Part shown: positions 4,579 to 6,821 of the stretch, in pieces
How the letters are laid out: each line of letters begins with the position of its first letter
Numbering within the stretch: position 1 is the stretch's first letter
From: Lachnospiraceae bacterium
Lineage (GTDB): Bacteria > Bacillota > Clostridia > Lachnospirales > Lachnospiraceae
Assembly (NCBI GenBank): GCA_017623295.1
Contig: JAGAPK010000049.1
Span: 1 to 40,422 of the forward strand
DNA length: 40,422 nucleotides
Reading direction: 5' to 3'
Position numbers and translations under genes: made by a program
The notes under the pieces: model-generated
Told to the model about the DNA's origin: nothing
Seen by the model: the letters and a program-made list of their open reading frames with translations, nothing else
The model's database searches: none

Positions 4579-4582
4579 TGAG

Positions 4583-4613
4583 CACTCTCAAGTGTAAAAC
4601 TTGAGAGTGTTTT
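4583..4613 (+). terminator. Intrinsic (rho-independent) terminator
   Basis: CACTCTCAAG (4583-4592) pairs perfectly with CTTGAGAGTG (4600-4609), extendable by one T-A pair to leave a five-base loop, and is followed by TTTTGATT from 4610. It begins four bases after the GT4 stop and closes the first operon. Confidence 0.9.
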
Positions 4614-4637
4614 GATTATGGCAGAATATTGTAGAAT

Positions 4638-4670
4638 ATATCCGTAAATAAGGAATATCCGTAAATAAGG
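4638..4670 (+). repeat. Two-copy 16-bp direct repeat
   Basis: ATATCCGTAAATAAGG occurs at 4638-4653 and again at 4655-4670, separated by one base and lying directly upstream of the promoter at 4673. It could be a regulator site or simply a slippage duplication; nothing in the sequence decides between these. Confidence 0.7.
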
Positions 4671-4672
4671 GA

Positions 4673-4701
4673 TTGCTTTTCCATTTAAAGAGTGATATAA
4701 T
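4673..4701 (+). promoter_or_regulatory. Promoter for the Rpn gene (sigma-A type)
   Basis: TTGCTT (4673-4678), a 17-base spacer, then TATAAT (4696-4701), preceded by TG at 4693-4694, giving an extended -10 (TGATATAAT). Together with the terminator just upstream, it makes the Rpn gene an independent transcript. The start would be near 4708, leaving a leader of about 195 bases. Confidence 0.75.
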
Positions 4702-4903
4702 CAAACACATCTATTTATATCAATATTTTCTAATAAGAAAAATCAGTATTTCATTGACGTGTATGTCACAAATTCCGGAGATTATCGAAAATATGAAAGG
4801 AGGAAGTGAAAAGATAAATCACTCAAATAAACGAAAAAACAGATTCGAATATACTAAAAAAGATTGATAAATGAAAAACAAAATATTATAATGAAAGGGA
4901 AGT

Positions 4904-5974
4904 ATGGGAAGTAGAGATATTATATTAAAGTCATATTTAGCAGATAATGACCGCTTTGCAGATTTAGTAAATGCATCCGTTTTCCAGGGAAGACAGGTAA
5001 TTTTACCGGCGCAGTTAGAAGTACAGGACAGTGTCAGGACTGCAAATGTGAAAAGTCATCGGGGGAAAAGAGAGATACAACGTACCAGTGACGTTATAAA
5101 AAGAGTAACATTAGGTACACAATTTATTGTTGTAAGTCTTGAGAATCAGAATGATATTCATTACGCAATGCCGCTTCGAAACTTTGTCAGTGAAGCAGCG
5201 GATTATCAGAAACAGTATGATAACATTAGGAAACAGCATGAGCAGAAACGCGATTTGCTGGGAAAGGAGTATTTGTCAGGTTTCTCGAAAAAAGACAGAA
5301 TTATACCGGTTATTACCATAGTGCTGTATTTTGGCGAGGAAAAATGGAGTGGAGCTACCGACTTGTATGAATTAATGGATATGCAAAGCTATCCGCCGGA
5401 GATACAGAAACAGTTGGGGAAGTTCATAAATAACTATCATATCAATTTGATTGATGTAAGGCATATGGAAAACCCGGATGTTTTTCGTACTGATTTGAAG
5501 CAAGTATTCAATTTTATAAAGAGAGATACAAACAAGAAAGAATTACAGGAGTACCTTGCAAATCACCGAGCGGAATATGAATCATTAACAAGTGAAACTT
5601 TCGATGTTATTGAGAAACTGAGTAATTTCGATTTTGGAGGATTCAGAAAAGAATCTGTCGAGACAGGAGGGAGTTATAGTATGTGTAGAGCAATGGAAGA
5701 GATGTTAGAAGATGCAAGAGAGGAGACAAGACAAGAAATGTGTAAAGCAATGGAAGAGATGTTAGAAGACGCAAGAGAGGAGACAAGACAAGAGATGTGT
5801 AGAGCAATGGAAGAGATGTTAGAAGATGCAAGAGAGGAAGTAAGACAAGAAGTTAGACAGGAGTCATATAGAACGATGGAAGAAATTCTGGAGTATGCCA
5901 GAACAAATGATATAAAGGAAATATTAGATTTAATAGAGGAAAAAATGAAAGTGTTCCAGACTGCAAAGGCGTAA
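4904..5974 (+). CDS. Rpn-family PD-(D/E)XK nuclease (full-length, RpnL-like)
   Basis: 356 aa. The N-terminus (RDIILKSYLADNDRFADLVNA) is typical of Rpn/transposase_31-like nucleases. Candidate active-site residues are D63 (RTSDVIKR), E80 and Q82 (SLENQ), followed by the conserved HYAMPLRN and a Tyr-rich helix. The core runs to about residue 240. A GG-rich linker is then followed by a charged alpha-helical tail made of three near-identical 19-residue repeats (from M260) and a diverged fourth. GAAAGGGA at 4893-4900 serves ATG 4904. Rpn proteins are DNA endonucleases. In E. coli the full-length form is toxic and anti-phage, held in check by a separately translated C-terminal fragment, and an internal start of that kind is visible here. 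The gene has its own promoter, sits between a terminator and a second promoter, and has no apparent link to glycan synthesis. Confidence 0.9.
   Translation: MGSRDIILKSYLADNDRFADLVNASVFQGRQVILPAQLEVQDSVRTANVKSHRGKREIQRTSDVIKRVTLGTQFIVVSLENQNDIHYAMPLRNFVSEAADYQKQYDNIRKQHEQKRDLLGKEYLSGFSKKDRIIPVITIVLYFGEEKWSGATDLYELMDMQSYPPEIQKQLGKFINNYHINLIDVRHMENPDVFRTDLKQVFNFIKRDTNKKELQEYLANHRAEYESLTSETFDVIEKLSNFDFGGFRKESVETGGSYSMCRAMEEMLEDAREETRQEMCKAMEEMLEDAREETRQEMCRAMEEMLEDAREEVRQEVRQESYRTMEEILEYARTNDIKEILDLIEEKMKVFQTAKA
5665..5680 (+). promoter_or_regulatory. Internal ribosome binding site in the Rpn gene
   Basis: A full-consensus AGGAGG at 5665-5670, continuing as GAG to 5673, lies 10 bases before an in-frame ATG at 5681. 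It is at least as strong as the site for the full-length protein. The position, at the junction of nuclease core and repeat tail, is where Rpn genes known from E. coli start their small intragenic product. Confidence 0.75.
5681..5851 (+). repeat. 57-bp coding tandem repeat, three copies
   Basis: Units at 5681-5737, 5738-5794 and 5795-5851 differ by only a few bases (R/K at residue 3; E-T to E-V near the end of unit 3). A diverged, shorter fourth unit follows. Each encodes 19 residues, so copy-number change keeps the frame. Near-identity at silent sites points to recent duplication. Confidence 0.93.
5681..5974 (+). CDS. Predicted intragenic RpnS-like antitoxin (C-terminal Rpn fragment)
   Basis: 97 aa, same frame as the full-length Rpn protein and identical to its residues 260-356. 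It opens exactly at the first 19-residue repeat, MCRAMEEMLEDAREETRQE, of which there are three copies, then a diverged fourth (VRQESYRTMEEILEYAR) and a C-terminal helix ending EEKMKVFQTAKA. Everything is predicted helical and highly charged, suited to dimerisation. Separate translation is inferred from the AGGAGG at 5665-5670. By analogy with E. coli Rpn systems, it would bind and block the full-length nuclease. The repeats contain further Met codons, but these lack ribosome sites of similar strength. Confidence 0.65.
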   Translation: MCRAMEEMLEDAREETRQEMCKAMEEMLEDAREETRQEMCRAMEEMLEDAREEVRQEVRQESYRTMEEILEYARTNDIKEILDLIEEKMKVFQTAKA

Positions 5975-5978
5975 TCCC

Positions 5979-6024
5979 TTGCTAGTTTTGTCCATAACGT
6001 ATATAATATAGAAGATGTTATAAT
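5979..6024 (+). promoter_or_regulatory. Promoter(s) for the second glycan operon
   Basis: TTGCTA (5979-5984), a 17-base spacer and TATAAT (6002-6007) form a strong sigma-A-type promoter five bases after the Rpn stop. A second extended -10, TGTTATAAT, lies at 6016-6024 without a clear -35. Either would give a short leader to the gene at 6063. No terminator was seen between the Rpn gene and this point, so read-through is possible. Confidence 0.75.
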
Positions 6025-6062
6025 ATAGCAAAACTATGCGAATCAGATAAAAGGAGAAACTT

Positions 6063-6821
6063 ATGTTTTCATTCGAGGATTATAAAGAGATTATCAGAAT
6101 TATACAGGCTACCGGCAGACATGCAAATTATGCGGATGCTTTAAGCAAGGATAAATTTGTGATTATGCGTCATGATGTAGAATATAGTGTGGAACGCGCT
6201 TATGAACTTGCCAGAGTAGAATCCAGCATGGATTTTATTTCTACATTTTTCTTCCAGTGGACCAATAATTCTTACAATATTTTATCCAGAAAAAATCTGG
6301 ATATGATTAAAGATATGCACGAAAGAGGACAACATATCGGACTTCATTTTGCTTTAAACGGTATGACTGATATGACTGAAATTCGCAAAAGAATTAAAAA
6401 AGAAATTGATATTTTAAGTGAAATGTTTGGTTTTCAGATTACAGAATTTTCCATTCATAGACCGTCGAAGGATGTACTTCGTGAGAACATTAAACTGGAT
6501 GGAATTATAAATGCATATCAGGATGATTTCTTCACTTTTGCAGAACAGGTTACACCGGAGACACCGGTCAAAGTAAAATATTTGTCAGATGCCAATCACA
6601 TCTGGCGTTATGGTTATCCGGATGAAGAGAATATTACCGGATATGATAAAGTACAGATTCTGACACATCCTTTTGCATGGTGTAAAGAGGGATATAATAA
6701 CTTTAATAACTATCGTTCTTTAGTACAGGAGAAATATGTGGAATTGGTTAATTCCATCGATCAGGAGTGCAAAGACTTCAGCGAATATAAAGATTATTTC
6801 ATTGAAAAATATCAGAGATAA
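6063..6821 (+). CDS. Polysaccharide deacetylase-like protein
   Basis: 252 aa. An RHDVE motif (H37, D38, E40) early in the chain, GLHF (H95), IHRPS (H132) and a late LTHPFAW segment match the deacetylase-like beta/alpha-barrel proteins found in polysaccharide loci. The classical TFDD motif of NodB enzymes is absent, replaced by HDVE. No signal peptide, so likely cytosolic, perhaps acting on a nucleotide- or lipid-linked sugar. AAGGAG at 6051-6056 serves ATG 6063. First gene of the operon from the promoter at 5979 and 12 bases from the AsnB-like gene, with which it probably works. Substrate and even deacetylase activity are uncertain. Confidence 0.72.
   Translation: MFSFEDYKEIIRIIQATGRHANYADALSKDKFVIMRHDVEYSVERAYELARVESSMDFISTFFFQWTNNSYNILSRKNLDMIKDMHERGQHIGLHFALNGMTDMTEIRKRIKKEIDILSEMFGFQITEFSIHRPSKDVLRENIKLDGIINAYQDDFFTFAEQVTPETPVKVKYLSDANHIWRYGYPDEENITGYDKVQILTHPFAWCKEGYNNFNNYRSLVQEKYVELVNSIDQECKDFSEYKDYFIEKYQR

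Follow-up and report, generated by a model that had tools for sequence, protein, structure and literature searches.

An Rpn-family nuclease gene with a conserved internal start and a 19-residue repeat tail, a probable gene-within-gene toxin-antitoxin, in a surface-glycan locus of a Lachnospiraceae bacterium

Why would a nuclease gene that lies among surface-glycan genes carry a well-formed ribosome-binding site (RBS) deep inside its own reading frame? The question is raised by a stretch of 40,422 nucleotides from Lachnospiraceae bacterium (GenBank assembly GCA_017623295.1, contig JAGAPK010000049.1, positions 1 to 40,422, forward strand; hereafter the window), in which an open reading frame (ORF) at 4904..5974 of the plus strand encodes a 356-residue protein of the Rpn family. 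An earlier note on this DNA had pointed to a Shine-Dalgarno (SD) sequence, AGGAGG, at 5665-5670 and, after a 10-nt spacer, to an ATG at 5681-5683 in frame with the ORF, and had read the gene as a nuclease with an internal start for an antitoxin. Inspection of the sequence found the motif exactly as noted, and a misread frame or strand was ruled out by a direct check of sequence and ORF. Our analysis indicates that this gene is very probably a toxin-antitoxin of the RpnL/RpnS gene-within-gene type whose repeat is longer than usual. The full-length product, rpnL, is the predicted toxin, an Rpn-family PD-(D/E)XK nuclease recognized by its ORF, its match to PF04754 and its RpnA-aligned residues. 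Residues 1-259 (4904..5680, plus strand, 777 nt) form its nuclease core, which shows no indel against the orthologue L034. The C-terminal part, rpnS (5681..5974, plus strand), is a predicted 97-residue antitoxin with its own translation start and the motif MCRAME; this assignment rests on the conservation of the start-codon column and on a position that matches the RpnS start in E. coli. L034 comes from the metagenome-assembled genome RGIG3145 (goat rectum), and both genomes of this species pair hold two paralogues, at locus A (the window gene and L034) and at locus B (L002 and L035).

The earlier note had proposed aligning Rpn homologues to see whether the internal site is conserved. We carried out this check on 122 homologues, 90 from the genus and 32 from elsewhere in the taxonomic family. 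Among 103 matches, three with unresolved bases, two short partial ones, three that were too divergent (including L004 of the window's own assembly) and two with identical proteins were dropped, leaving 93, and the removal of three truncated or frame-broken genes gave the 90; the 32 are what remained of 39 added genes after five duplicates and two incomplete ones were taken out. From the whole set, 44 representatives below 60% core identity were chosen. The column of ATG 5681 holds ATG in 114 genes, GTG in four, TTG in two, and GTA and TTA in one each, that is, a start codon in 120 of 122. An SD of -6 kcal/mol or stronger precedes it in 119 of 122 genes, whereas of the 815 other in-frame ATGs inside these cores, taken as the background, 127 have one; the corresponding number for the representatives is 42 of 44, and in 40 of the 44 the internal start has a better SD than every other internal core ATG. 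Among 309 alignment columns, this one has the strongest mean SD in the representatives (-10.37, compared with a mean of -3.27 and a standard deviation of 1.34). For the 84 genes whose own start aligns with that of the window gene and which have enough upstream sequence, the internal mean (-10.20) equals that of the genes' own starts (-10.41).

We also looked at eight additional loci that have a tail and all or part of a core, which include two plasmids (genes of Selenomonas ruminantium and Agathobacter rectalis) and another family; the fragment L227 was left out. All eight carry ATG (five) or GTG (three) at the position, with SDs of -8.3 to -10.5, and a short neighbouring ORF of L220 (119 aa) matches without the start motif. 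The family-wide test of the 122 homologues rules out that the AGGAGG-ATG pair is a one-off coincidence. Across these 122 homologues, which come from gut-type bacteria, the internal site acts as the genuine start of a gene would.

Does this position correspond to a start that is known to be used? As a positive control, the same SD measure was applied to rpnA, rpnB, rpnC and rpnE of E. coli K-12, with rpnD left out. The strongest internal ATG was M244 in rpnA, rpnB and rpnE, and the adjacent M241 and M242 were tied in rpnC; the measure singles out the RpnS position in all four genes. In the available parts of Zhong et al. (2023; PMC10327210), M244 of RpnA and its RBS are identified by mutation as the RpnS start, the residue numbers given for RpnBS (D29) agree with M244 as its first residue, RpnS is detected by immunoblot for all five E. 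coli rpn genes, RpnL is blocked by RpnS, and RpnS and RpnL no longer match once a 4-residue repeat is added. The same parts report that a Clostridioides difficile rpn gene cloned in E. coli yields RpnS in a manner that depends on the RBS and the internal start. Intragenic antitoxins have thus been shown experimentally in E. coli, and a small product has been shown for one C. difficile gene (PMC10327210). Among the literature matches listed, only this 2023 preprint deals with RpnS in the gene-within-gene sense.

The likeness to the E. coli systems (RpnA-E and RpnP2), as described there, consists of an Rpn core with the same catalytic residues, a variable helical C-terminal tail whose repeat number changes between relatives, and an internal RBS and start codon at the border of core and tail (PMC10327210). 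The start motif MTIAERLRQEG of RpnA corresponds in place to MCRAMEEM in the window. The two differ in that the window core matches RpnA weakly (hhalign E 0.0013, probability 18.6%), and in that the repeats of RpnL/RpnS are four residues long, whereas the unit in the window has 19 residues, accompanied by one 4-residue VRQE (PMC10327210). In the available parts of that source, repeat length is no condition of membership, and repeats can, but need not, be present; we therefore file the window gene as an RpnL/RpnS variant. The C. difficile Rpn, whose sequence we compared by description only, is similarly a Gram-positive rpn with an RpnS product, but is named among the species with 4-residue repeats (PMC10327210). 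The 122 members of the same subfamily share the start motif (mostly MCKA) and the SD in the same column, and differ in that the 19-residue repeat occurs in only four of them, all in this species pair. The proposal that the gene shares the two-product design of E. coli Rpn is supported by the conservation among homologues together with the E. coli control.

The identity of the nuclease itself was examined as well. The protein matches PF04754 (Transposase_31, Rpn family) with 29.4 bits against a cut-off of 21 (29.7 bits in a second scan), and in the profile alignment its D63, E80, Q82 and R92 pair with D63, E82, Q84 and R94 of RpnA. Mutation of D63, E82 or Q84 (to Lys) abolishes RpnA activity, according to the part of the report available to us (PMC5350276). 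Among the 122 homologues, Q82 is conserved in 122, E80 in 116 and D63 in 84. A profile search of the Protein Data Bank gave no match at E <= 1, and viral contigs gave no match in a single-protein search, which detects close relatives only; four matches were found in phage records, all unannotated and with at most 34.9% identity. We do not read the gene as a transposase: the published work, in its available part, argues against it, and a lone gene is inserted at an otherwise empty site, terminal repeats and target duplications not having been searched for. The assembly (87.75% complete) contains at least four Rpn genes, namely the window gene, L002 (contig C25, 80% identical), L003 (33%) and L004. 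The last is a more E. coli-like Rpn (PF04754, E 1.5e-22) and is also placed between two family-2 glycosyltransferase genes (G000:C24).

Could the window gene be a decayed or purely structural copy without toxin-antitoxin function? The SD duplex at the start of the nuclease itself reaches just -4.5 kcal/mol, and the part after the repeat looks, by eye, shorter than in relatives, both of which would fit decay. However, the core shows a dN of 0.012 and a dS of 0.189 against L034, which points to purifying selection; in addition, the catalytic residues are intact, and both paralogues are present in both genomes. We consider a decayed copy very unlikely.

A second alternative is that the internal ATG is unused: the Met, where the tail helix begins, and a linker rich in Gly, Glu and Lys would be kept for the protein, and the SD-like purines would be a by-product of these residues. 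The anti-SD duplex of the single site (-10.8 kcal/mol) is exceeded by only one of 20 scored ORF starts in the window (-10.9), the true starts of these ORFs being unverified, and AGGAGG occurs five times on the two strands of the window compared with a dinucleotide-shuffle mean of 12.25. In favour of an unused ATG, the site is not significant against synonymous shuffles when the protein is held fixed (P 0.156 and 0.125 in two runs): much of the SD is dictated by the residues 5' of the Met. Likewise, the shuffle means over the 122 genes are already strong (-7.62). Nevertheless, in 41 of the 44 representatives the actual SD surpasses the shuffles (mid-P < 0.5; Wilcoxon 8.6e-10), and the residues 5' of the start vary by subgroup (TGGSYS, RRRDKG, GDKID, EEANTT), each still encoding an SD. 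Between paralogues A and B, the 10 codons 5' of the ATG carry no synonymous change (0/9, 0/7, 0/10 and 0/8 amino-acid-identical codons in four comparisons), and 32-41% of the core codons for identical residues have changed. Moreover, the corresponding E. coli sites do serve as starts, as stated in the available parts of PMC10327210. These results leave an unused ATG improbable, although less so than a decayed copy.

Besides the single-site test, several observations weigh against a two-product gene. Two of the 122 homologues, with GTA and TTA, have no start codon in the column, and the retention of GTG or TTG where the Met is lost is suggestive only (P 0.079 and 0.074). The homologue L003, from the window's own genome, keeps the ATG with a weak SD (-3.3). 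A fold predicted for 161 nt leaves the SD largely open (unpaired 0.69-0.95) but has the first two ATG bases paired most of the time (unpaired 0.21 and 0.13). A count of all differences between the paralogues per 30-nt window puts the segment preceding the ATG at the low end without making it an extreme: 21, 82, 10 and 43 of 250 windows are equally low; the comparisons with L035 are the less extreme ones (82 and 43). The internal SD exceeds that of the RpnL start in 32 of 84 genes (17 of 25 representatives), so that an excess of antitoxin is not general in the family. A scan for promoters inside the gene gave none standing out above chance. As for the nuclease, the D63 column contains Asp in only 84 of 122 homologues and Thr in 30, the alignment in that stretch being unchecked, and PADLOC run with the window protein gave no useful match (best E 2.9e-4). 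With all of these taken into account, we still regard a gene-within-gene RpnL/RpnS pair as the best reading of the locus.

The tail that would form the antitoxin begins with the repeat. As the earlier note had recognized, ATG 5681 is the start of the repeat tail: Tandem Repeats Finder (TRF) reports a 57-bp unit present 3.0 times over exactly 5681-5851, which places the beginning of the array at this ATG. Copy 1 (5681..5737, 57 bp or 19 aa, plus strand) contains the rpnS start codon, and copies 2 (5738..5794) and 3 (5795..5851) follow on the same strand. They are succeeded by an additional 4-residue VRQE unit and a degenerate fourth copy, SYRTMEEILEYAR (5852..5902, plus strand), recognized by a TRF period of 12 at 5830-5862 and by the length difference from L034. 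At locus A, the tail of the window gene exceeds that of L034 by 69 nt, with a difference of 0 in the core, and the neighbouring genes of the two align at 84-93%. We read the 69-nt excess as one 57-bp and one 12-bp unit; the window has three full copies plus the VRQE unit, and L034 has two, so repeats have been gained or lost between orthologues. Full copies within one gene differ by 0-12 of 57 nt. The hydrophobic period of the tail is 3.8 residues, with five positions per 19-residue unit; this says merely that the stripe is continuous, because an exact 19-residue repeat permits no other value in the helical range.

How unusual is this repeat? Among the 122 tails, a period of four residues was called in 16, eight in 10, seven in one, 12 in one, 19 in four and 26 in one, and none was called in 89. 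The four genes with the 19-residue unit are the window gene and L034 at locus A and L002 and L035 at locus B, which bears out the earlier claim of a much longer repeat. When the tail was searched against 397 genomes of the taxonomic family, close matches came from its own genome only and weak ones from ten others. Two genes of a genome of another genus (G273), L113 (649-1878) and L102, have tandem units of 26 and about 30 residues that also contain the start motif; both start with GTG, with an SD of -16.1 in L102, and their later copies read CTG (L113) and TTA (L102) at the start position. From these sequences, long repeats that include the head of the tail probably arose at least twice. What is new here is a 19-residue repeat that includes the start motif and occurs in two paralogous loci. 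Tail-only matches, L036 and L037, were also found, in which the head MCRAMEEM stands behind a strong SD (-11.6) and which are close to the window's repeat; tails may have been swapped between Rpn subfamilies.

Other short relatives of the tail were seen as well. L079 (3619-4104) and L080 (minus strand) are short Rpn copies that have lost most of the core and kept the start motif and tail; they are close to full-length copies and look like extra stand-alone RpnS genes. L039 (4809-5183) is a small coreless ORF with an RpnS-like tail at its end (MCKAMEEMVNQAREEG, SD -9.5), possibly an orphan antitoxin.

An ATG preceded by GAGGAG is found in each repeat copy, so that initiation inside the gene could occur at more than one place. 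This introduces a third alternative, in which every 57-bp unit would bring its own ATG and SD, giving antitoxins of several lengths (97, 78 and 59 aa) and one more for each repeat gained. The SDs of copies 2 and 3 are -9.1 kcal/mol each in the window and up to -13.4 in L034, and that of copy 2 is -12.5 in L002 and -12.0 in L035; also in its favour, the 11-nt spacer of both copies in the window, measured by duplex, is near the upper end of the family range. Conversely, copy 3 is weak at locus B (-6.5 and -6.8), copies 2 and 3 are not significant against synonymous shuffles (P 0.07-0.57), and the separate repeats of L113 and L102 have CTG and TTA in their later copies. Such nested starts appear rather unlikely, although they are more plausible than the two alternatives above. 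It is similarly doubtful that copy number would set both the specificity of the antitoxin and its dose or length range in one step. If the nested starts are real, each gained repeat would lengthen the dimerization helix and add an antitoxin start within the toxin gene.

Next, we considered where the gene lies. The window is a surface-glycan-type locus: 20 of its proteins were scanned, and they include glycosyltransferases, FkbH-like, asparagine synthase-like, ABC transporter, sugar transferase, pyruvyl transferase and WecG-type proteins. At the thresholds used, the glycosyltransferase upstream of rpn was matched in 76 of 77 genomes of the genus and the gene at 6063 in 72 of 77; each flank is present as a close relative (at least 74% identity) in 71 of the 77. 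In one genome (G041), a close relative by the flank genes, only 68 bp separate the two flank matches, and the rpn gap is empty. In this genome, the glycosyltransferase frame reaches into the next gene's promoter by a few codons, which implies that rpn was inserted at the extreme end of the glycosyltransferase gene, immediately 5' of this promoter. The segment shared with paralogue B consists of the ORF and a leader of about 240 bp. The gene in the window is thus an insertion at an otherwise empty site.

We surveyed this gap (window 4579-6062; loci L165-L193 and L196-L215) in the 77 genomes: two contain Rpn, 48 were examined, 12 have gaps of less than 300 bp, nine have the two flanks on separate contigs and six are without a close flank. 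According to match coordinates, its length within the genus ranges from 19 bp to about 19.7 kb. Of 43 cluster representatives of the gap ORFs, 39 were scanned, and at least five of the 48 examined genomes have defence-type genes in the gap: a type I restriction-modification set in G004 (L199), a C5 methylase with Vsr in G009 (L202), a SIR2-like PDC-S25 in G042 (L180), SoFic in G045 (L181) and Fic in G002 (L197). A Schlafen/AlbA_2 and a RhuM gene in the gap of G007 were left unclassified, and the remaining examined gaps hold glycan genes, unclear genes or nothing listed. No Rpn was found by blastp in the other examined gaps of the 48 genomes. The survey was made without a control interval, and no enrichment of defence genes is claimed. 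The place of rpn in a glycan locus, which the earlier note had called a capsule locus, is confirmed. Other species carry different defence-type genes in this gap, and the site looks like a shared landing spot for Rpn, restriction-modification, SIR2 and Fic genes.

The sequence around the gene contains several further features, all on the plus strand. A terminator-like hairpin (4580..4612, -20.8 kcal/mol), which is absent from the results of a consensus scan, lies 3' of the upstream glycosyltransferase. The leader shared with paralogue B in the alignment (4664..4903) holds a promoter-like TTGATA-17-TATAAT (4864-4892), in which the TATAAT is identical in all four copies and the -35 element is TTGATA at locus A and TTGAAA at locus B. 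Downstream, a promoter-like TTGCTA-17-TATAAT of the next gene is found at 5979..6007, and G041 has a similar one at its empty site. Eight promoter-like sites were counted in the region against a chance mean of 7.1, which is not above chance. The part of the leader at about 4690-4780 is highly conserved between paralogues A and B and has no listed ORF; it is possibly a promoter or a regulatory RNA. A second AGGAGG in the leader (4798-4803) has no listed gene behind it.

Taken as an RpnL/RpnS pair, the gene would work as follows. The full-length RpnL (4904-5974) would act as a PD-(D/E)XK DNA nuclease, and a second ribosome start at 5681, behind the AGGAGG, would yield RpnS, the 97-aa tail. RpnS would then join the same tail in RpnL as a helical oligomer and hold the nuclease inactive. 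In the window gene, the combination of a weak SD for RpnL (-4.5) and a strong one for RpnS (-10.8) would favour antitoxin over toxin, which is no rule of the family. Each 57-bp unit would add 19 residues to the helix, in the way that the repeats of four residues lengthen it in known Rpn, and a change in copy number would alter which RpnS fits which RpnL. We infer that phage infection would release RpnL from RpnS and that the pair may serve in phage defence. The conserved internal start suggests that most Rpn annotations of this subfamily are probable two-product genes. In addition, a long repeat that carries the start, together with orthologues that differ by repeat units, would provide a natural pair for the question of whether copy number sets antitoxin specificity.
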